A stretch of DNA of 50,341 nt from Phycisphaerae bacterium (lineage in GTDB: Bacteria > Planctomycetota > Phycisphaerae > UBA1845). The stretch lies in the NCBI GenBank assembly GCA_029260075.1, contig JAJDDY010000071.1:1-50341 (forward strand), given 5' to 3'. The first letter of the stretch is position 1; every line of letters starts with the position of its first letter. The translations under genes were made by a program, and so were the position numbers. This document shows, piece after piece, positions 3,024 through 12,381 of the stretch. The notes below the pieces were generated by a model. It saw only the letters and a program-made list of their open reading frames with translations. It did no database searches and was not told the origin of the DNA.

Positions 3024-3066
3024 TTGACGGATGCCTCTCCGCGTCGTATATGGATAGGCGTATATG
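3024..3066 (+). promoter_or_regulatory. arsR promoter with paired CGTATATG repeats
   Basis: A -35 TTGACG (3024-3029) and -10 TATATG (3047-3052) are separated by 17 bases. The octamer CGTATATG occurs twice in direct orientation (3045-3052 and 3059-3066), the first over the -10 and the second running into the arsR start codon. This arrangement fits an ArsR operator that blocks RNA polymerase. The predicted transcript start (about 3059) lies only a few bases before the ATG, so arsR mRNA may be almost leaderless. Confidence 0.6.
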
Positions 3067-3414
3067 ACGACGAAGCTAAGCACAACCCCCGACCTGTTCC
3101 GCGCGTTCGCTGACCCGACGCGGCTGCGGATTCTCAATCTGCTGCTGGAAGGCGAGGTTTGCGTTTGCGACCTTTGTACGGTTCTCGATGAGATTCAGCC
3201 GAAGGTCTCGCGGCATCTGGCCTACCTGCGACGGGTGGAGCTTGTCACCGTGCGAACGGAGGGCAAGTGGAAATACTACGCCGTCGCAAAGCACCCGAAG
3301 GGGTTGCAGCGGACGCTGCTCAGTTGCGTCAGGTCGTGCCTGCGCGAGATGGATGAGTTGCAGGACGACCTTGAGCGGCTCCGCACGATGGATAGCGGCG
3401 ACTGTTGCGGATGA
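3064..3414 (+). CDS. arsR: ArsR-family arsenite-responsive repressor
   Basis: This 116-residue winged-helix protein is a SmtB/ArsR repressor. The start of the DNA-binding domain reads F-R-A-F-A-D-P-T-R-L-R-I-L, and the metal site is the classical C-V-C-D-L-C (Cys33, 35, 38) in the alpha-3 helix, as in arsenite-sensing ArsR. The recognition helix follows (Q-P-K-V-S-R-H-L-A-Y-L-R). A second Cys pair closes the protein (Cys114-115), which might add a ligand. It begins a co-directional run with the arsenite exporter and arsenate reductase, so it presumably controls them; binding of As(III) would release the operator overlapping its own start. Confidence 0.9.
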   Translation: MTTKLSTTPDLFRAFADPTRLRILNLLLEGEVCVCDLCTVLDEIQPKVSRHLAYLRRVELVTVRTEGKWKYYAVAKHPKGLQRTLLSCVRSCLREMDELQDDLERLRTMDSGDCCG

Positions 3415-3463
3415 CGGACTGGCGAGGCGCGTTGCTATCGCCGCAAGGAGTTGAGTACGAATC

Positions 3464-4549
3464 ATGACCGATGGATGCCCGAAACGACTGTCCTTTCTCG
3501 ACCGCTTCCTGACGCTCTGGATATTTCTGGCGATGGCGGTTGGCGTCGGGGGTGGGTACTTCTTCCCCGGAGTGGAAGGGTTCATCGATCGCTTTCAGGT
3601 CGGCACGACGAACATTCCCATCGCCATCGGGCTGATTCTGATGATGTACCCACCGCTGGCCAAGGTGAAGTACGAGGAACTCGGCGACGTGTTCCGCGAC
3701 TTCAAGATTCTGGGCCTTTCGCTGGTGCAAAACTGGATCATCGGACCGGTCCTAATGTTCGCGTTGGCAGTTCTTTTTCTGAATGGCTATCCCGAATACA
3801 TGGTCGGTCTCATCATGATCGGCCTAGCTCGCTGCATTGCGATGGTCATCGTTTGGAATGACCTAGCCGAAGGCGACGCGGAGTACGCAGCCGGGTTGGT
3901 GGCTTTCAACTCGGTGTTTCAAGTGCTATTCTTCTCCATCTACGCTTGGTTGTTCATCACCGTCCTGCCGCCGCTCTTGGGTCTCAAGGGGGCGGTGGTG
4001 GCGATCACCATCGGCGAGATCGCCAAGAGCGTGTTTATCTACCTCGGCGTTCCTTTCCTCGCGGGCATGTTCACACGGTTCACGCTGCTCAGGCTCAAGA
4101 GCCGCGTATGGTACGAAGAAAAGTTCATCCCGAAGATTTCGCCGATCACACTCGTCGCACTCTTGTTTACGATCCTGGTGATGTTCTCGCTCAAGGGTGA
4201 GTACATCGTGCAGCTTCCGATGGATGTCGTCCGCATTGCGATTCCGCTCTGCATCTACTTCGTCATCATGTTCCTCGTATCGTTCTGGATGGGCAAGCGG
4301 ATCGGCGCTGGCTACGCCAAGACCACAACCATCGCCTTCACGGCTGCAAGCAATAACTTCGAGTTGGCTATCGCGGTGGCGGTGGCCGTGTTCGGTATCA
4401 ACTCCGGCGTGGCCTTCGCGGCTGTCATCGGGCCGCTTGTCGAAGTACCCGTGCTGATCGGTCTCGTGAATGTGGCGTTCTGGTTTCGGCGACGGCACTT
4501 CGCGGTGGAAGCCCATGGATCACTGGCCACCGGAGAGCAACAAGCATGA
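3464..4549 (+). CDS. acr3: Acr3-family arsenite efflux permease
   Basis: This 361-residue protein has about ten membrane segments and belongs to the ACR3 (bile acid/arsenite/riboflavin transporter) superfamily, exporting arsenite driven by the proton gradient. Diagnostic features are the N-terminal [11 protein letters not shown], the motif [13 protein letters not shown] with the conserved membrane Cys (Cys124), and [17 protein letters not shown] purine-rich AAGGAG site precedes the ATG. Its stop overlaps the arsC start (ATGA), indicating coupling. Full length, no odd features. Confidence 0.93.
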
Positions 4550-4962
4550 AGAGGCGAGTCCTCATCCTCTGCACGGGCAACTCGTGCCGATCACAGATGG
4601 CCGAGGGGCTGTGGAACGCGCTGGCCGATGGCAAGTGGATAGCTTTCTCAGGAGGCTCGTCACCGTCTGGATTCGTGCATCCCCTAGCCATCGAGGTGAT
4701 GCGAGAGATCGGCATCGACATCTCAGCCAATCGCAGCAAACATGTCGACGAGTTCGCCAATGAGTCCTTCGACCTCGTGGTCACGGTTTGCGATAACGCG
4801 AAGGAAGCGTGTCCGGCGTTTCCCGGTGCGAAACACACCGAACACTGGCCCTTCGATGATCCTGCTGAAACAGACGCTATGGGCGACAACCATCTTGCTG
4901 TCTTTCGCCGCGTCCGCGACGAGATTACAAGTGCGATACGCACCCATCTCGCGGGATCGTAA
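4546..4962 (+). CDS. arsC: Thioredoxin-coupled arsenate reductase
   Basis: This 138-residue protein has the low-molecular-weight phosphatase fold and reduces arsenate to arsenite in the cytoplasm for export by Acr3. The P-loop is C-T-G-N-S-C-R-S (Cys9, Cys14), and the relay cysteines are in C-D-N-A-K-E-A-C (Cys82, Cys89). This is the same triad and spacing as in thioredoxin-dependent ArsC of Gram-positive plasmids, so thioredoxin rather than glutaredoxin is the expected electron donor. All three catalytic Cys are ordinary TGC/TGT codons, unlike the UGA-containing genes downstream. It overlaps acr3 by four bases. Confidence 0.93.
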
Positions 4963-4965
4963 CGC

Positions 4966-5172
4966 ATGTCGAACCACGATGCGGCAGCATCAGCGGAGCG
5001 CCATGAGCGAGCATGGGCGATTGTCCGCATCGCGCTGGGCATGACTCAAATCATGGGGGCTACTGCGACGGTCTACTGGTTCGCATTCACGGGCGTGAAC
5101 TTTCTGTCCCTCGGCGGTTTGGCTGTCACGAGCATAGCGTTCATAGCGAGTCGCCTGCTCTTTCGAGACTGA
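4966..5172 (+). CDS. Small two-helix membrane protein
   Basis: This 68-residue protein starts three bases after arsC and ends six bases before the next gene, so it sits within the arsenic operon. A charged N-terminus (about 1-18) is followed by two hydrophobic segments (about 20-42 and 47-65) with a short Gly-containing turn. I recognise no family. The tight packing argues that it is a real gene, possibly a helper of the transporter or of the glycosyltransferase that follows; that role is only inferred from position. Confidence 0.65.
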   Translation: MSNHDAAASAERHERAWAIVRIALGMTQIMGATATVYWFAFTGVNFLSLGGLAVTSIAFIASRLLFRD

Positions 5173-5178
5173 CAAAGC

Positions 5179-5874
5179 ATGATTTCCGTCATCGTCCCGG
5201 CAATGAATGAAGCCATCAACCTTGAGCCATGCTTGGCATCGCTGCGGTCAGCGCGGCATTCGGTCGAGGTCATTGTCGTGCGGTCGGGAGATACTGACCG
5301 GGAGACAAGCGTCGGCATTGAGGGCGTGAGAACCGTCAGGTCTCCGATCCCCGGTCGAGGTGCGGCCATCGACGCTGGTATGGCTGCGGCACAAGGCGAA
5401 ATCGTCGCCTTCGTTCACGCCGACTCGCGGTTGCCCGACTCCGCATATGACGACATGACAAGCGTGATGGATAATCCCAAGAATATGGGAGGATGGTTTC
5501 GCCGACGGCTCGATGACCCTCGCTGGCGTTACCGTCTTGTCGATCTTGGCGCAAACTCGTTCAGTCGATTCTGTTGCATCGCCACGGGCGATCAGGTGAT
5601 TTTCTGCCGTCGTTCTGTTTTGCTAACGATAGCTCCGCTCAAGGACTACCCGCTGTTTGAAGACATGACGCTTTGCCGCCGCCTCAAGAAGCACGGTCGC
5701 CTTGTCCAACTGCCCGGCCCGATTCTCGTCTCTCCGCGTCGTTTCCACGAGCGCGGCATCATCCGAACGGTTGCGACGAATCTGCATCTGACTTGGGCGT
5801 ACTTCCGTGGCCGCGATCCGACGATCCTCTACCGCTCGTACTACGGCAACGAAACGGGCGGCAATTCTGACTGA
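5179..5874 (+). CDS. GT2 glycosyltransferase, arsenosugar-type
   Basis: This 231-residue GT-A protein opens with I-S-V-I-V-P-A-M-N-E-A and has the D-S/D-x-D-like metal motif F-V-H-A-D-S-R-L-P (about residue 76-84), then G-D-Q-V-I-F-C-R-R and P-L-F-E-D-M-T-L-C-R-R-L. These features match the family often annotated as TIGR04283 arsenosugar-biosynthesis glycosyltransferase, a name based on frequent linkage to arsenic genes. Here it directly follows acr3-arsC. No ArsM methyltransferase is in the window, so arsenosugar synthesis would need one elsewhere. The substrate is not shown by the sequence. Confidence 0.8.
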   Translation: MISVIVPAMNEAINLEPCLASLRSARHSVEVIVVRSGDTDRETSVGIEGVRTVRSPIPGRGAAIDAGMAAAQGEIVAFVHADSRLPDSAYDDMTSVMDNPKNMGGWFRRRLDDPRWRYRLVDLGANSFSRFCCIATGDQVIFCRRSVLLTIAPLKDYPLFEDMTLCRRLKKHGRLVQLPGPILVSPRRFHERGIIRTVATNLHLTWAYFRGRDPTILYRSYYGNETGGNSD

Positions 5875-6067: not shown

Positions 6068-6099
6068 TTGACCCTGCACTAAGGTTCAGGGTGTAGACT
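6068..6099 (+). promoter_or_regulatory. MerR-type promoter and operator
   Basis: A -35 TTGACC (6068-6073) and -10 TAGACT (6094-6099) are separated by 20 bases, the overlong spacer that MerR regulators act on by DNA untwisting. Between them lies a dyad with arms ACCCTG (6071-6076) and CAGGGT (6087-6092), centred in the spacer as in mer operators. It lies directly before the merR-like gene, so regulator and downstream genes are probably co-transcribed and autoregulated. Confidence 0.85.
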
Positions 6100-6116
6100 C
6101 AAGAAGGATGGTCATC

Positions 6117-6542
6117 ATGAAACTGAACAACGGGACACAAATGACGATTGGACAGGTCGCCAAGACGCTCGATCTGCGGATTTCGACGCTGCGGTACTAC
6201 GAGCGAGAGGGGCTTCTCGCCCCGCCCGACCGGAGCGCGTCGGGATATCGGCTGTACGACGAAGCCGCCGTCGAGCGGCTGGAGTTTATACGCTCGGCTC
6301 AAGCGGTGGGATTCACGCTGGAGGACATCCGTGAATTGCTGCGGCTCGACGAGGAATCCTCGTGCAAGGATGTTCAGCAACTGCTGAACCACCGCCTTGC
6401 CGAGGTGGAAACGAAGCTGGCCGATCTCAATCGCGTCCGCACCGCCCTGTCCGGCGCACTTGAACAGTGTCGCAAGTCGCGCCGGGGATGTGGCGTCTTG
6501 ATGAGCCTGAGACATCGCAAGGCAAGCAGGAAATCGAAATGA
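6117..6542 (+). CDS. merR: MerR-family regulator, probably Hg(II)-type
   Basis: The protein begins with the MerR winged helix (M-T-I-G-Q-V-A-K-T-L-D-L-R-I-S-T-L-R-Y-Y-E-R-E-G-L-L) and a dimerisation helix. Three cysteines sit where Hg(II)-sensing MerR has its ligands: S-C-K-D at the start of the long helix, E-Q-C near its end, and R-G-C-G-V-L in the C-terminal loop. The loop is two residues shorter than in Tn501/Tn21-type MerR, so metal choice (Hg, or Pb/Cd/Zn-like) is not certain. I chose the ATG at 6117 because AGAAGG lies nine bases upstream; an ATG at 6108 is too close to it. The stop overlaps the next start (ATGA). Confidence 0.85.
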   Translation: MKLNNGTQMTIGQVAKTLDLRISTLRYYEREGLLAPPDRSASGYRLYDEAAVERLEFIRSAQAVGFTLEDIRELLRLDEESSCKDVQQLLNHRLAEVETKLADLNRVRTALSGALEQCRKSRRGCGVLMSLRHRKASRKSK

Positions 6543-7771
6543 AAACAACGACGACAACATCCAAACAACGCGACGATCAAACCCCTGTGAAGCTGGCGTG
6601 TCCGGCCTGCGGCGAAAGGGGTTGCAAGGTCACGCGCGTGACCCTTGAAAGCCTACTGCGCCCCGAACGGCGCGGCGACATCGGCGAAGATCAATACTAT
6701 GTATGCGCAACGCCGAGTTGCGACACGGTGTATTTCGGTGCGAGCGACAGTCAGACATTTCGTAAGACCGACTTGACCGTCCGCTTCGGCCTGAAAGAGA
6801 CCGATGCCCCGCGTCCTGTCTGCTACTGTTTCGACCACACGGTCGAGGAGATTCAGGACGAGATTCACCGCACCGGGGAATCCACCGTCGTGGAGAGCAT
6901 CAAGGTTGACATGAAAGGCCCCGGCTGCCGCTGCGAGTATACGAACCCGCTGGGCGGTTGTTGCCTGAAAACCGTTCAGGGCGCGGTCGCCGATGCGCAC
7001 CGCTCACTCGGCAACGCGGACCAAGCCACAGCGGCTGGCGCTGTCGATCACGGTGACTGCTGCGCGGGCAACGGTCACGCACGCAAGGATGAAGAGGTGA
7101 CGGCGGACTGCTGCGCCACGCAAGGCGATGCGTCGGGGGGCGTCGGAGTCGGCTCCGGGCGCGATCGCGCCGGAACACTGGCGGCGGGCGGCTCTGTCAT
7201 AGCGGCTATCCTGTCATCCGCGTGCTGCTGGCTCCCCTTGGTGTTGATTGCGTTCGGCGCGTCGGCGGCTGGCGTGGCTGGCTTCTTCGAGGCGTACCGT
7301 GCGTACTTCATCGTCGCTGCCGTCGGGCTGCTTGGATTCGGGTTCTACATGGTCTACTTCCGAAAGGAGCAGTGCGAGCCGGGTACCGCGTGCGCCGCGC
7401 CGAACCGCAAGCTCGTGAGATTCAACAAAGTGATGTTGTGGACTGCGACAGCGCTGGTAGGCGCGTTCGTGATGTTCCCCAATTATGTCGGGCTTGTGTT
7501 CGGCTCGCCGAGTCAGACATCCGCTGCGGTCGATACCGCCGGACTGGCGAGCGCCGAATACCGCATCGACGGCATGACCTGTGAGGGCTGCGCGGACATC
7601 CTGAATGGCGCGTTGAAAAAGTTGCAGGGAGTGAAAAACGCCGAGGTTGACTTTGCTACGAAATCAGCGGTTGTCCACTACGAGCCGGGCAAGCCCGTCC
7701 CTCCAGAGCGCGTGATCGAGGTAGTTAAAACCGCCGGGTATAGCGCGACGCCTGTAGGCGAGATACCATAG
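6539..7771 (+). CDS. CopZ-N / MerT / HMA metal-transport fusion protein
   Basis: This 410-residue protein fuses parts usually encoded separately. Residues about 18-75 form a zinc-binding Cys domain (C-P-A-C near 21-24), and about 85-150 a BFD-like [2Fe-2S] domain (C-Y-C, G-C-R-C, G-G-C-C); together they resemble the N-terminal half of Archaeoglobus CopZ. A His/Cys-rich linker follows. About 195-320 is a MerT-type membrane domain with the Cys pair in its first helix (S-S-A-C-C-W-L-P-L-V-L). About 341-400 is a MerP/HMA domain with G-M-T-C-E-G-C (Cys348, Cys351). It probably takes up Hg(II) or a related thiophilic metal and hands it on. It is coupled to merR by ATGA. Its cysteines are all ordinary codons. 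Confidence 0.85.
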   Translation: MKTTTTTSKQRDDQTPVKLACPACGERGCKVTRVTLESLLRPERRGDIGEDQYYVCATPSCDTVYFGASDSQTFRKTDLTVRFGLKETDAPRPVCYCFDHTVEEIQDEIHRTGESTVVESIKVDMKGPGCRCEYTNPLGGCCLKTVQGAVADAHRSLGNADQATAAGAVDHGDCCAGNGHARKDEEVTADCCATQGDASGGVGVGSGRDRAGTLAAGGSVIAAILSSACCWLPLVLIAFGASAAGVAGFFEAYRAYFIVAAVGLLGFGFYMVYFRKEQCEPGTACAAPNRKLVRFNKVMLWTATALVGAFVMFPNYVGLVFGSPSQTSAAVDTAGLASAEYRIDGMTCEGCADILNGALKKLQGVKNAEVDFATKSAVVHYEPGKPVPPERVIEVVKTAGYSATPVGEIP

Positions 7772-7800
7772 GTGTTATTCATTAGGGTCAGGAGATAGTC

Positions 7801-8046
7801 ATGAAGGCATTGAAGATCAGCCTCCTCGCGGCAGCGATTTCGATTCCGCTCTGGTTTGTGGGTGCGCGTCGCGTCTTGGGGTGACCTCTCTGTGCGCAAG
7901 ACGCTGCTCCCCGGTCGGGAGGCATATGGGATGCAACCGAATCCGCGCGCACGGTCGATATCGTGACTTGGTTCGGCGTAGCGGTGGGTGTTCTCTTTCT
8001 GATCAGCCTGCCCCGAATCCGGCGGAGCCGAAACAATGGTAGGTAG
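7801..8046 (+). CDS. Small membrane selenoprotein candidate with UPLC motif
   Basis: Reading the in-frame TGA at 7882-7884 as selenocysteine gives an 81-residue protein. It has an N-terminal hydrophobic segment or signal anchor (about 5-21), the motif L-G-U-P-L-C-A-Q (U28, Cys31), a short polar stretch, a second hydrophobic helix (about 54-68) and a basic tail. The U-x-x-C pair is a standard redox motif. A good AGGAG site (7790-7794) lies six bases before the ATG and the stop is TAG. It sits 29 bases after the MerT fusion gene. A conventional reading would give only 27 residues. I know no named family. A hairpin lies about 23 bases after the TGA. Confidence 0.75.
7907..7921 (+). promoter_or_regulatory. 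Candidate bacterial SECIS hairpin (UPLC gene)
   Basis: CTCCC (7907-7911) and GGGAG (7917-7921) form a 5-bp stem with loop CGGTC. The loop G residues lie about 29 bases after the UGA at 7882-7884, inside the distance range reported for bacterial SECIS elements, and the GGTC loop resembles the loop of the E. coli fdhF element. Folding is by eye only. Confidence 0.5.
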
Positions 8047-8098
8047 AGAGCATGGAAGCTGAAACGAATACTTCAACGAAACGAGGAGAAAGAAACGA

Positions 8099-8854
8099 AT
8101 GAACCGTATCAACGCCAGCCTGTCAGCCTTCGCCGTGGCGACGGCGCTACTTTCCACGAGTACCTTGGGCGAGCCGCCGAGTGCAAACCCATCCCATGGG
8201 GAGCCATCGGTACAGAAGAACATCGCCTTTCATGTCATCGGCCTGATGAAAACGAAATCGGGTGCGACATGAATGGGGTGACCGAACACGGTCACAAAGT
8301 CTCTGGAAGAGACTAAGGCAACGAAGGGTATCACTTGGGATTACGGCAAGGATCGTGTGACAATCGGGTACGATCCGAAACTGACGACCACGAAAAATCT
8401 GGCCAAGGTCATCACCGATCTTGGGTACATGGTGGAGGCGATTGAAGTACCGAAAACTGAGGCCGATGCGAAACGGGGGAAGCCCGTCAAAGCGCCGCTG
8501 CCGAAAGACGCGCCCAAGTTTCTGCGCGAAGCTTTCGACAAGGCGCGTAGAGCCAATCAGCCACTCGTGGTTGATTTTTGGGCTGAATGGTGCGCGCCGT
8601 GTCTACAACTAAAGAAGGTCACCTTCCACGACCCGAAAGTCGCCAAACTCCTCGACAAGGTGGAATTAGTCTTCGTCGATCTCGACAAGTACCCGGCGTT
8701 GGGGAAGGCCTTCGGCGTGGCGTCAGTGCCGGATGTGTTTCTGATTGACCGCAAGGGGATGATCGTGGATCGGCTGCACAACTTCGTGCCGCCAGCCGAC
8801 TTCCTCGTGCGTCTCAAGAGGCTGCTCGACGAACAGGGGAACGACTCTCCGTGA
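8099..8854 (+). CDS. Secreted HMA-thioredoxin selenoprotein with UxxU
   Basis: The open frame runs from ATG 8099 (GAGGAG at 8083-8088) to TGA 8852 if TGA codons at 8270 and 8279 are read as selenocysteine, giving 251 residues. A signal peptide (about 1-24) is followed by an HMA fold (about 48-115) whose metal-binding loop reads G-A-T-U-M-G-U-P-N-T-V, aligning U58 and U61 with the two Cys of the classical G-M-T-C-x-x-C site. Then comes a thioredoxin domain (about 130-245) with W-C-A-P-C (Cys165, Cys168) and the cis-Pro region S-V-P-D-V. Both selenocysteines hit the expected Cys columns. It probably binds Hg(II) or a similar metal, or acts as a diselenide redox protein in the periplasm. The true stop is also UGA. 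Confidence 0.85.
8278..8314 (+). promoter_or_regulatory. Two candidate SECIS hairpins after the UxxU codons
   Basis: Two perfect 7-bp hairpins follow the paired UGAs. The first has arms GTGACCG (8278-8284) and CGGTCAC (8289-8295) with loop AACA and includes the second UGA itself. The second has arms AGTCTCT (8298-8304) and AGAGACT (8308-8314) with loop GGA. The loop guanines of the second lie 24 bases after the UGA at 8279-8281 and 33 after the one at 8270-8272, within the range known for bacterial SECIS elements. One element may serve both codons. Confidence 0.6.
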
Positions 8855-8951
8855 CGATCCGTGTGTAATGCGAGTCGTATCACATGTCCTGCACAATCGC
8901 AGAGACAGTGATCCGCATCCTCGTAGTGTTTTTGATACTGGAGAAGCGATC

Positions 8952-9473
8952 ATGAAACGACGAATCGTATGTTTGGGAACAATCAGCGCCGCACTCGGCA
9001 TCAGCGCGTGTCTGGCCTTCTACGGCGGTGCGCCCGCCAAGGCCCAAGCCCCGGCAGTCGAACGACCGTTGTTGCTTCACCTACTGACGGACGCCAACAG
9101 CAACGACGCCAATGCTTGTGTTGCCTTCAACCTGGCGTGGGTCGCAATCGAACGGGGGCATCCGGTGGAGATGCTGTTCGACGGCTGGGCCAGCTACAAC
9201 ATCAAGACGGGTGACTTCTGGGCAAAGTACCGTGTGCCGGAGCATTTCCGCAAGCTGGTCTCGCAGACCGTCGGCCACGATGTCGAATGGGCTGGAGGAA
9301 CCTATGTTGACCTCCTCAAGTATCTCCAAGGCAAAGGTTTGGTCGTCGCGGCCAACAAGACAATTCTGGCATTGTCGGGTGACGATAAGAAGTTGCCCTC
9401 GTTCGTCGAGCAATGGACACTGGCGGAAATGGTCACACATCTACGTGGTTCGAGCGGCTACGCGAGCTATTGA
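8952..9473 (+). CDS. Secreted DsrE-family protein
   Basis: This 173-residue protein has a signal peptide (about 1-30, ending near P-A-K-A-Q-A) and a DsrE/DsrF-like domain: L-L-L-H-L-L-T-D-A-N near the start, A-F-N-L-A-W-V-A-I-E-R-G-H, V-E-M-L-F-D-G and a C-terminal G-Y-A-S-Y. DsrE-like proteins handle sulfur (or selenium) as per- or polysulfides on a conserved Cys; here a single Cys in D-A-N-A-C may serve. GGAG at 8940-8943 supports the ATG at 8952 rather than earlier starts. Lying between two selenoprotein genes, it probably belongs to the same pathway. Its UGA stop is at the normal end of the family, so I do not read it as selenocysteine. Confidence 0.75.
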   Translation: MKRRIVCLGTISAALGISACLAFYGGAPAKAQAPAVERPLLLHLLTDANSNDANACVAFNLAWVAIERGHPVEMLFDGWASYNIKTGDFWAKYRVPEHFRKLVSQTVGHDVEWAGGTYVDLLKYLQGKGLVVAANKTILALSGDDKKLPSFVEQWTLAEMVTHLRGSSGYASY

Positions 9474-9804
9474 CCCAAACGGCGTATCAAGCTCATGTTC
9501 ACATGGTCTCTTTGCGGTCGCGGATAGGACTAATACAATCGGGCCGATCGGTAAAACACGAGCTCTCCGCCATGATTGCGGCCAGGAGGGCTTTCGAGCG
9601 TATGACGACTGCATTGTTGGGCTCTCCGAGCCGTTTTGACGTGTTGCGCCGTGAGAATTGACAGGATCGCGCCGTCATCAGCGTCTCTAAGGGCGGACCG
9701 ATTCCGTGCGCGTGACGTCAAACTTCTGGCGTCTAACTCTGATGATGCAGAGACGCTCGAACGGATACGAAAAAGGAACAGCAAAACTCCATAGGAGATT
9801 CGAT
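9474..9804. other. 331-base gap with no gene seen
   Basis: Short frames cross this gap but none has a family signature or good ribosome-binding site. I looked for a tRNA-like cloverleaf, including tRNA-Sec, and saw none. It may hold a promoter for the following gene; I could not identify one with confidence. Confidence 0.5.
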
Positions 9805-11904
9805 ATGACGCTCGTAGGTAGCCTACTCTTCGGATTGGTGATCTCGGTCGCGGCAGCAGCGGATTCACCTCCGGCCTCGAAAACCAAGGCATCCGGTTGT
9901 TGCTCTAAACCGGCCGGAACAAGTGCCAAGTTGGTGTCCCGACCCACCGCCGATTCTCTCGGCACCGACGTTCTTATTTCGCTCGAAGATTCTGTTGAAC
10001 CGCTGCGCAAACGATTCAACGCTGAGGCCGACAAACCTCGTGTCGTAGCGATTCTATCGCCGACGTGAGGCGGCTGTGTCTACGGCGCCCGTGCGGTGCT
10101 CGACGCGGTAGTTCGTGGTTATCCTACCCATGACATCAGCATTCACGTCGTTTGGGCAGCCATGTTGGGAGGCGACACGGAAGAGGCAGCGATAGAAATC
10201 AGCAGGATGTTCGATGATCCACGTGTCAAACAATACTGGGACCCGAAGCGGCTTACGGGAACGAGCTATTCTGCAGAAGTCTTTCCCACGTATCTTGCGG
10301 ACCTGGAAAAAGGCATGAAGGCCGGTCTTCCAGATGACCATTGGTGGCATCAAGAAGAACGGAATTGGAAGGACAAGAAACCCGAACAGGCACCTCTTTG
10401 GGACGTCGCTTTTACCTACGGCAAGGACGAACACTGGCGCGAGGCCCCTCCGCCACCGCGTGGAATGGTCAAACAGGTGCTGTATTCTGGTGGCGGCGGA
10501 GACGGGCCAACCGAATTGTTCTTCACTGACTTCAAGAAGCCTGTCCGTGACGGCGATTGGATTGAGGATATGTCGCTGGCCATGACGTCTCTGATGGGGC
10601 GCGAACCAAAGACACCTGCCAAAACAAAACAGACTGCACTAAGTAATGTGGAGCCAAGCTGTCAAGGGACCAGGATTCAGGCGTTACCTATCGCACTGAA
10701 GTTTGATGGATTGAAAGATGCCGACATCGATCGGGTTCAGGCGGCCGTCGGCGCCATGAAGGGCGTGATGCGAGCGTCGTTTGATTCCGAAAAAGAAACG
10801 ATGACGGTACTTGCCGATGCGAACGGTTCGGCAACCGCCGAAAAGATCGTCGAATTTGTTCGGCTTGCAGGATATAACGCTCGCGAAGCCAATGAGGAGG
10901 AACTGGAGCAAGCGTTGGACTCGATGCGCGCCGGTGGAGCGATCGTAATTCGCCGAGAAGCCGAACCGGAAGCCAAGGGCAACGTGACGTGGCCAGATAC
11001 ACCGGCTAGTCGAACAGCTCGAGCGTTTGTCGCCGCCTGCAATAGCGGTGACTCGAACAAAATGCGTGAGTATTCGGAGGTCCATCGCTCCAAGTCGGCG
11101 CTCGAATCCCGATCCGTAGACGAACGGCTCGAACAATACCGCGAGCTACTTGGCGACTGGGGTCAGCTCGACGTCCGCGCGGTTGAATCCCACGACAAAC
11201 GCCATGTAACAGTCACCGTAAAACCTGAGCGCGGTTTCTCGGGGTTGGCGATGACTTTTCAGTGCGAAGATGACCCGCCCCACAAGCTTGACGGGATTCG
11301 GATAACACCGACGATTCTTGATGATGGTGATGACAAGTCGACCGAGGAAGAGGGGGACGAAGGGAAGATGGGCGACATTACGGTTCTCGCTGAATCGCTG
11401 AAACCACTGCAAGATCATTTCAACGCCAACAAAGACAAACATCGGTTCATCGCGATTCTCTCGCCGACGTGACCGGGCTGTGTTCAAGGCGCCCGTGCGG
11501 TGCAGAAATCAGTACTTAAGGAATTCCCGGATGCAGACATCAGCGTGAGCATCGTTTGGATTCAGATGCCCGGATTCAGAGACAACGAGCGGACCGCGCG
11601 CAAGATTGCGGGCACGTTCTCGGATCCGCGGGTCAAACAGTTCTACGATCCATTCCCGGCACATATCGTAGGAAAAACATTCGCGAAGGGTCGCATCGCA
11701 CAGGGACCGGCGTGGGACATCTACTTTTTCTATAAGAAGGGGCAAGAATGGGCGGACGGCCCACCAGAGCCGGCAGAGTGGATGCACCAGTTGGGCGGTG
11801 GAGACCGCGCCGATGCGACAAAGTTCCGAACCGGACAGGACTTAGTCGATCAGCTTCATGAGGCGATGCACACGGTAACCGGGGCGGAGTGTCAGTCGGA
11901 TTGA
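9805..11904 (+). CDS. Secreted double SPTUxxC thioredoxin-like selenoprotein
   Basis: One frame runs 699 residues from ATG 9805 (TAGGAGA just upstream) to TGA 11902 if TGAs at 10066 and 11470 are read as selenocysteine (U88, U556). A signal peptide (1-22) precedes a thioredoxin-like domain with A-I-L-S-P-T-U-G-G-C and D-P-R-V-K-Q-Y-W-D. About 295-370 is an HMA-like fold without the CxxC. About 395-510 is a SnoaL/DUF4878-like domain. A second thioredoxin-like domain has the matching A-I-L-S-P-T-U-P-G-C and D-P-R-V-K-Q-F-Y-D. The two U sites lie in the same motif of two diverged copies, so independent nonsense mutations are very unlikely. Function is probably extracytoplasmic thiol/selenol redox or metal sequestration. 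From memory, Cys versions of the S-P-T-C-x-x-C domain exist as unnamed proteins. Confidence 0.82.
11474..11495 (+). promoter_or_regulatory. Candidate SECIS stem after second SPTU codon
   Basis: CGGGC (11474-11478) and GCCCG (11491-11495) can pair as a 5-bp stem with a 12-base loop, starting one base after the UGA at 11470-11472. After the first SPTU codon only 4-bp stems are visible (GGCG 10069-10072 with CGCC; ACGG 10082-10085 with CCGT). These are weaker than the hairpins in the two genes upstream, so the call is tentative. Confidence 0.35.
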
Positions 11905-12009: not shown

Positions 12010-12381
12010 ATGTCCGAGTGCTGCTGCAAGGAACATGGCACGTGTTCAAGCTGTTGTACCGCGAGCGCCGATAAGGGGTGTCCGGGCCGAGCGGGTACCC
12101 ACGGCGAACCCGATGATGCAGTGAAGCTCTCCGCGTCATGCTCGGGGTGCTGCGATATCACGCTGCAACTACCTGCCCCTCTCGTCCTCCAAGCGAAGGA
12201 CACCGCGAGTGATCGGTCCGGGGGCAAAGCGTCCCACGACCATGCGATACAGGCTCTCGCCGTGTCGTTCGAGATTGTGCCAGCACTCACTCCAAGACTT
12301 TCATTGCCGCCGCCTGATCATCGTCAGCGCGGCGATGAATGCGCACCGCTCTATATCACCATCTGCTCGCTTCTGATCTGA
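12010..12381 (+). CDS. Cys-rich protein of unknown function
   Basis: This 123-residue frame opens with S-E-C-C-C-K-E-H-G-T-C-S-S-C-C and has further Cys near residues 24 and 44-48, then a low-complexity Ala/Ser stretch and a hydrophobic end (L-Y-I-T-I-C-S-L-L-I). The Cys content suggests metal binding and the position after the selenoprotein genes fits. However, the ribosome site is weak, and an AGGAGG at 11970 instead serves an ATG at 11984 in another frame that yields only about 45 residues. I recognise no family; it may be a degraded gene. Confidence 0.45.
   Translation: MSECCCKEHGTCSSCCTASADKGCPGRAGTHGEPDDAVKLSASCSGCCDITLQLPAPLVLQAKDTASDRSGGKASHDHAIQALAVSFEIVPALTPRLSLPPPDHRQRGDECAPLYITICSLLI

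Follow-up and report, generated by a model that had tools for sequence, protein, structure and literature searches.

What purpose does selenium serve in a set of genes that lies behind a metal-responsive regulator? The question is raised by a 50,341-nucleotide stretch of DNA from a Phycisphaerae bacterium of the phylum Planctomycetota (GenBank assembly GCA_029260075.1, contig JAJDDY010000071.1, forward strand), which as a whole we refer to as the window. Between positions 6068 and 11904 the window contains, in this order, a MerR-type operator, a MerR gene, a gene that fuses the CopZ N-terminal domain to MerT and HMA, two genes that we call A and B, a gene for a 173-residue protein, and gene C (Table 1). 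A first-pass annotation had proposed that A, B and C encode selenoproteins of an operon responsive to mercury or another soft metal, and all features of the cluster lie at or very near the positions it gave. We wish to establish whether the UGA codons inside these genes are read as selenocysteine (Sec), and what the resulting proteins might do. We find that B and C are selenoprotein genes and that their products probably take part in the handling of a soft metal.

The capacity to insert selenocysteine

Judging from its genes, the organism can make selenocysteine. Every component for which the genome was searched is present: tRNA-Sec at 69.4 bits (gathering score 47), which ARAGORN likewise reports as tRNA-SeC with anticodon tca; selA (570 bits) and selB (337.7 bits), adjacent on a single contig (C4); and selD (370 bits), which has an in-frame TGA of its own within SCAGUAGK (L084, G000:C36).

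The five in-frame TGAs in three genes are confirmed. One lies in gene A, within GUPLC; two lie in gene B, within ATUMGUP; and two lie in gene C, within SPTUGGC and SPTUPGC. The reading frames are open on both sides of each TGA, and the TGA columns of B and C recur across genomes. When coding scores are compared over six frames, the in-frame score is the best for every piece of these genes except the part of gene B upstream of its first TGA, where the in-frame codon score is 0.12 and one reading of the opposite strand reaches 0.16. Compared with shuffles, the codon scores have z-values of 2.6 and 2.1 before and after the TGA of gene A, 2.9 and 6.7 for gene B, and 2.6, 8.0 and 4.7 for the pieces of gene C.

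Gene B and its conserved pair of UGA codons

Gene B is a selenoprotein gene. Its product combines an HMA domain (32.7 bits) with a thioredoxin domain (46.2 bits), each above its Pfam cut-off, and its AlphaFold2 model (mean predicted local distance difference test score, pLDDT, 90.5) has an HMA-like first part followed by a thioredoxin domain; the best match of the model in the PDB is 1vrs_D, DsbD-gamma (E 4.6e-08). The protein is likely to be exported, given the signal or lipoprotein leader peptides seen by eye in the translations, and to that extent the extracytoplasmic role proposed at first pass stands.

Among the matches listed from a search of 150 genomes, the organism's own included, full-length relatives of gene B occur in 13 genomes, in 14 rows. 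All 14 rows span the HMA domain, and in all 14 there are two TGAs, with SGA-x-U-x-G-U-P in frame. Two of the rows (G022 and G038) have an extra TAA or TAG inside the matched stretch; their frames, when read, are clean up to the stop. A search of 392 genomes of the phylum with the gene B alignment (E <= 1e-22) returned 34 rows, 29 of which, from 28 genomes, span the HMA motif, and all 29 carry two, three or four TGAs. The other five rows do not cover the motif and stand outside the 29; one of them is a Sec-free fusion in G460 (L194). The motif was read in 24 of the 29 rows, the window's own included (the rows left aside are G168:C47, G273, G385, G214 and G363), and in each of these 24 two TGAs form U-x-x-U.

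The additional TGAs are informative as well. In eight loci with three TGAs, the third occupies the position of the first cysteine (Cys) of the thioredoxin motif (GPGUxxC), and in three loci with four TGAs we find GDxUxAC and IPDTU. The thioredoxin motif thus varies between Cys and Sec in these loci, while UxxU is constant. Pairing of Sec with Cys among relatives of gene B is thus seen in the thioredoxin motif; for UxxU it is seen only against distant, Sec-free HMA-thioredoxin relatives. One such relative, with CDTC (L071, 875-1534), comes from one of the genomes of the 150-genome search and is not among the matches listed there. Another, the fusion of G460 (L194, G460:C208), is a single Sec-free open reading frame (ORF) that contains the CopZ N-terminal domain, MerT, HMA domains and a thioredoxin. 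It resembles the second gene of the window joined to gene B and, being one polypeptide, links the function of MerT to that of thioredoxin. Elsewhere (L188, about position 1124) a three-TGA gene B has just upstream of it another HMA ORF, with one Sec and one Cys (UMGCP).

A scan of contigs with the Cys form of the gene B motif gave 80 loci among the matches listed, 79 of which match outside the HMA domain; the sole match across both parts of gene B is weak, at 23% identity (L157). Scans of this kind cannot detect TGA-bearing forms. In 20 genomes from which such loci come, the HMA domain is left uncovered by every match at E <= 1e-15, and a scan of plasmids for gene B returned only a match to a P-type ATPase.

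A covarying hairpin within reach of both codons

Downstream of its UGA codons gene B can form a hairpin, which sits 30 to 44 bases past the first base of the first UGA; its loop begins 33 nucleotides after the first UGA and 24 nucleotides after the second. A published rule for the bacterial selenocysteine insertion sequence (bSECIS) requires an apical loop, 16-37 nucleotides past the UGA, that has G in the first two positions, and a stem of at least 4 base pairs with a minimum free energy of -7.5 or lower (PMC13188914). Both loop distances in gene B fall inside this range.

In order to assess the hairpin we assembled 37 sequences by a pattern that requires both Sec codons. Because the pattern demanded both, this set carries two UGAs by construction, and the unselected UGA counts are those of the 150-genome and phylum searches given above. 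Standard pairs occupy 97.3% of the 222 pair cells, and when the partner strand is slid this falls to 39-64%. In 34 cells both sides of a pair have changed, where shuffled sequences average 11.8, and the covariation score is 0.420, against 0.171 in shuffled sequences; no shuffle out of 500 equalled the hairpin in pairing, in two-sided changes or in score. At one stem pair the encoded residues change together, mostly Ser with Thr or Ile versus Ala with Leu, as U-A becomes G-C or G-U. The codons of the hairpin are also frozen: CTG is found in 37 of 37 sequences and GGG in 34 of 37, although from pooled codon use one would expect an identity of 31-35%. In our reading, a single SECIS probably serves both UGAs of gene B. 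Another hairpin in gene B, which precedes this one and contains the second UGA, was considered as well (209 of 259 cells paired); it is weaker, and partly due to conserved codons, and we do not claim it as a SECIS.

The simple SECIS rule is not decisive alone, for 18.6% of 1540 control TGAs pass it. The hairpin after the first Sec codon of gene C has a score that 15% of the control TGAs reach, and the one after the second a score that 11% reach; the covarying stem of the former was hidden because the simple rule permitted one G-U pair only. The hairpins of genes B and C all agree with the published bSECIS rule save the second of gene C, which at -7.4 kcal/mol is 0.1 short. This counts against our interpretation, as do two summary measures for gene B, namely the number of pairs that changed on both sides (3, a value reached in 34 of 500 shuffles) and of further pair types (8, reached in 10 of 500), and the fact that the hairpin shuffles ignore relatedness.

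Gene C and the reading of UGA

Gene C is likewise a selenoprotein gene. It encodes a Sec thioredoxin-like domain, an HMA-like stretch without CxxC (18.3 bits, under the Pfam cut-off of 24.8), a stretch shared with many relatives and without TGA, and a second Sec thioredoxin-like domain. The model of the SPTUxxC domain (pLDDT 94.8) is thioredoxin-like, and its matches to the thioredoxin family in the PDB are weak (best E 4.2e-04). In the window and its relatives the motif can be sought at 26 places: U is found in 21 and C in 2, and the motif is uncovered in 3. Two of the latter are partial gene-C relatives with TGAs elsewhere (L048 and L049), perhaps decayed copies.

With the phylum search added, 26 Sec domains of the gene C type are available for the hairpin, and 125 of their 130 cells are paired, compared with 42-76 when the partner is slid. 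Two-sided changes are seen in L031 and L032 (T-A) and in L042 and L044 (C-G). In the corresponding region of five Cys homologues only 14 of 25 cells are paired; the hairpin is not kept in these homologues. These five also bear on the earlier proposal that each UGA stands where Cys is expected, since they carry Cys at that very column; overall, homologues have U at the UGA columns of gene B, and U or Cys at those of gene C. A second Sec domain of the gene C type is found in the same genome (L037, G000:C58:48466-48966) with one TGA, and the window's MerR and MerT have no match in the surrounding 16 kb. A Cys-form pattern found none of the gene C domains in viral contigs.

We must still ask whether the TGAs could be something other than Sec codons. 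They might be true stops, in genes that are decayed or frame-broken or in which the assembly is in error. Gene A, which cannot be checked by homology, and the two partial gene-C relatives just mentioned, whose TGAs lie outside the motif as in decayed copies, would fit such a view; but identical TGAs recur in assemblies from many genera, the hairpins covary, and the Sec machinery is present. We regard true stops as very improbable, and for genes B and C we reject them on the conservation of the TGAs and the covariation of the hairpins. Alternatively, TGA might be reassigned throughout the genome to another amino acid. The existence of in-frame TGAs is what such a change would predict, but the genome has a clear tRNA-Sec together with selA, selB and selD, and gene B itself ends in TGA in 6 of 14 loci (the other eight have TAA or TAG nearby); a code change of this kind is barely credible, and we reject it because the Sec machinery is present and TGA also serves as a terminator. 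Sec is thus close to certain at the four codons of genes B and C, as far as sequence can tell.

Gene A and the layout of the cluster

The selenoprotein claim, sound for genes B and C with their conserved UGAs, hairpins and machinery, has thin evidence for gene A. This gene is preceded by a ribosome-binding site, and its in-frame coding scores are positive and weak. Its bSECIS-like hairpin has a score that 6.6% of the 1540 control TGAs equal or better. No family match was found in Pfam or NCBIfam. In the 149 other genomes there are two weak matches, with Cys (L087) and Glu (L088) at the U column, and the Cys of L087 sits in a frame that looks non-coding. A search of 18 loci for small membrane proteins with U/C-P-x-C found nothing beyond gene A itself and one dissimilar ORF. 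At gene A's place in another locus (L072) there is a small protein with CLCPAC, whose likeness is by eye only. On balance we lean towards Sec at this UGA, which would perhaps make the product of gene A, a putative small membrane protein, the third selenoprotein of the cluster.

Table 1. Features of the cluster, with positions in the window
Feature	Position	Strand	Remark
MerR-type operator/promoter	6068..6099	+	TTGACC-N20-TAGACT; dyad ACCCTG...CAGGGT
MerR-family regulator	6108..6542	+	three candidate metal-binding Cys
zf_CopZ / CopZ N-terminal domain, MerT, HMA fusion	6539..7771	+	Sec-free
Gene A	7801..8046	+	81 residues; two hydrophobic segments; GUPLC; a single TGA within an open frame
Predicted Sec codon of gene A	7882..7884	+	uncertain
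bSECIS-like hairpin of gene A	7907..7921	+	CUCCC[CGGUC]GGGAG; fold -8.6 kcal/mol
Gene B	8099..8854	+	251 residues; leader and UxxU HMA fused to DsbD-gamma-like thioredoxin (CAPC)
Predicted Sec codon 1 of gene B	8270..8272	+	
Predicted Sec codon 2 of gene B	8279..8281	+	
Predicted SECIS hairpin of gene B	8298..8314	+	covariation in 37 sequences
Gene for 173-residue protein	8952..9473	+	leader peptide; without Sec; DsrE-like by eye only
Gene C	9805..11904	+	699 residues
Predicted Sec codon 1 of gene C	10066..10068	+	SPTUGGC
Predicted SECIS hairpin of gene C, behind Sec codon 1	10085..10099	+	GCGCC[CGUGC]GGUGC
Predicted Sec codon 2 of gene C	11470..11472	+	SPTUPGC
Predicted SECIS hairpin of gene C, behind Sec codon 2	11489..11503	+	

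The gene between B and C belongs to the cluster. It has no match in Pfam and nothing with E < 0.15 in NCBIfam, and among the genomes searched it is found in its own only, with no match in the 149 others. Right behind gene C, at 12010-12381, there is a Cys-rich ORF of 123 residues (MSECCCKEHGTCSSCC...) without a family match. Directly upstream of the cluster and on the same strand, a compact ars cluster (3064-5874) contains ArsR, Acr3 (461 bits; cut-off 282.8), an arsenate reductase (131.6 bits, under the cut-off of 174.3), a TIGR04283 arsenosugar-type glycosyltransferase (186.1 bits; cut-off 182) and a 68-residue ORF. Rfam gives no match in the window at gathering scores, and none between 7700 and 12000 at E up to 1.

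Regulator, transporter and neighbourhood

The start of the cluster, as first described, is borne out by its sequence and by Pfam. The regulator matches MerR_1 (80 bits) and MerR-DNA-bind (69 bits), and its top-scoring solved relative is MerR (5crl, 98.1 bits), followed by 5gpe, which we take to be PbrR (84.2), and CadR (82.8). In the fusion, zf_CopZ, MerT and HMA are all above their Pfam cut-offs, and the protein also passes NF047645 CopZ_Nterm_CC (110.7 bits; cut-off 100).

Across the 34 loci that contain gene B, we find MerR in 13, a CopZ/MerT-like gene in 9 and a gene of the C type in 6; these counts are lower bounds because several contigs are short. An operator of the form TTGAC-N20-22-TA is present in 11 of the 13 loci that have MerR, against a mean of 0.56 and a maximum of 3 in 300 shuffles. 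In four of them (L033, L034, L039 and L077) the operator lies between MerR and gene B, so that gene B is likely a direct target there.

Several neighbours of gene B are themselves Sec-containing. MerT-HMA proteins with GMTUPQSC are found in L213 and L221, and small UxxU HMA proteins in L038 and L215. In L221 (G445:C40) a four-TGA gene B stands by the MerT/CopZ/HMA gene and a Sec glutaredoxin (SSATUGSC), a cluster of selenoproteins denser than that of the window. A YHS-domain protein lies beside gene B in L072 (7945-8322) and L219 (7413-7787), and the two share 66% identity; L215 has a weak match. In the window none turned up within the first 16 kb.

The absence of MerA, also part of the first-pass annotation, holds at the curated cut-off: the best match to TIGR02053 in the organism's own genome, which is 96.9% complete, reaches 312.9 bits, compared with a cut-off of 454.45. 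Of the 150 genomes, 3 have a MerA above the cut-off, and no genome among the 13 listed with gene B is one of them.

Which metal, and by what mechanism?

We consider it probable, with some reservation, that the cluster is an operon under the control of MerR and directed at a thiophilic metal, Hg(II) being the likeliest, in which selenolates capture the metal and MerA has no part. The metal would relieve MerR, and the CopZ-MerT-HMA membrane protein would handle the ion at the inner membrane. The exported gene B protein may then hold the metal with both selenolates of its U-x-x-U HMA site, and its DsbD-gamma-like thioredoxin, together with the Sec domains of gene C, might keep the selenols reduced or take over the metal by selenol/thiol exchange. 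The net outcome would be sequestration and hand-over outside the cytoplasm, instead of reduction to Hg(0) by MerA. Mercury as the substrate and capture as the mechanism are what we infer. Hg(II) has a higher affinity for selenolates than for thiolates. The MerT domain and the ranking of MerR (5crl) among solved relatives favour this metal.

Several observations weigh against the account just given. The regulator scores 124 bits against the NCBIfam equivalog TIGR02051, whose cut-off is 150.85, and its last two Cys are spaced C-x6-C, as in CadR, and not C-x8-C, as in MerR, according to alignments. MerR was not seen in the fetched stretch of 21 of the 34 gene B loci, some of which lie on short contigs. 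MerT normally imports Hg(II) for MerA, which here does not exceed its cut-off. The Sec-free HMA-thioredoxin relatives (L071 and L194) indicate that the wider fold can do without Sec, and gene A and the gene at 8952 have no usable homologues, which leaves Sec in gene A plausible only.

Some of these points would suit the same selenoproteins, under the same MerR control, acting on Cd, Pb, Cu(I), Ag or another soft ion. The CadR-like Cys spacing speaks for such a metal, as do the scores of the regulator, which reaches no MerR-type equivalog cut-off and for which the Zn, Cd/Pb and Cu regulator models come close behind that of MerR; so do the CopZ-type domains and the ars genes directly upstream. 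On the other side stand the MerT domain and the solved relative already named, and the Sec HMA protein neighbouring gene B in L221, whose best match is MerP, although under the cut-off (55 versus 92.55). Another metal is in our view unlikely, though a serious contender. Rather more doubtful is a Dsb-like extracytoplasmic redox relay for metal or oxidative stress, in which UxxU would be a redox diselenide and no metal site. The DsbD-gamma-like thioredoxin of gene B, the thioredoxin-like domain of gene C, and the further Sec in the thioredoxin motif of 11 distant gene B loci are all compatible with such a relay, but the HMA fold is retained, the adjoining genes encode a metal-sensor regulator and a metal transporter, and a published UxxU family is annotated as metal-binding (PMC13188914).

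If metal capture by selenolates is indeed the function, the operon points to soft toxic metals being gripped by selenium instead of sulfur. Sec is usually regarded as the better redox catalyst. Here UxxU has remained Sec-Sec in many genera, next to a redox motif that varies between Cys and Sec, and this suggests that selection has favoured selenium as a ligand for metal. We put forward only tentatively, and stop a little short of believing, that a MerA-less, selenium-based defence against mercury is widespread in the phylum: exported HMA-thioredoxin proteins, induced through MerR, would hold Hg(II) at a bis-selenolate UxxU site that selection has maintained as Sec-Sec within the close family, with one SECIS shared by the two UGAs and with Sec thioredoxin-like partners for regeneration or unloading. 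The operon offers a clean test case for bacterial selenolate defence against Hg(II), and its covarying hairpin, within reach of two UGAs nine bases apart, a good model of tandem Sec insertion. Annotation that reads UGA as a stop would truncate genes B and C, and such families may therefore be overlooked.

Comparison with known systems

The first-pass annotation knew of no described system with this gene set. The gene set as a whole is indeed unmatched in the literature searched, and genes B and C, which reach no NCBIfam cut-off, are undescribed in that literature, which excluded Haft & Tolstoy 2025 and Zhang & Gladyshev 2007; Sec-containing MerP and MerT and UxxU metal-binding selenoproteins, on the other hand, are in print. 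Table 2 of Zhang & Gladyshev 2008 (PMC2398784) includes the selenoproteins MerP and putative mercuric transport protein. PMC13188914 lists NF041115 UxxU and MerT selenoproteins, the former family being in print as 'putative mercuric reductase', and describes multi-selenoprotein operons.

It is useful to set the cluster beside each of these. Gene B and NF041115 UxxU_metal_bind share an HMA-type domain whose U-x-x-U holds two Sec; against this family gene B reaches 28.3 bits (cut-off 95), and it differs by KTKSGAT before the motif and by the fused thioredoxin. NF045683 MerT_CopZ_Se and the Sec MerP and MerT families are mer-type transport proteins that use Sec, as does this cluster, but the window's own fusion is Sec-free (67.6 bits; cut-off 375) and the Sec lies in separate proteins. 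The SAO and Tso operons of Haft and co-workers (as given in the review PMC13188914) likewise have several selenoprotein genes per operon; their content differs from the MerR-MerT-HMA set found here, and gene B matches TsoB (NF045694) by its thioredoxin part only (66.3 bits; cut-off 805). The C-terminal (gamma) thioredoxin of DsbD has the fold of the C-terminal domain of gene B, from which gene B is distinguished by its fusion to HMA. The cluster also resembles the mer operon, with which it shares the MerR operator with its long 20-nucleotide spacer and dyad, a MerR-like regulator, MerT and HMA, and from which it differs in that the genome has no MerA above the cut-off; by analogy, the role of MerP may fall here to the Sec HMA-thioredoxin protein encoded by gene B.

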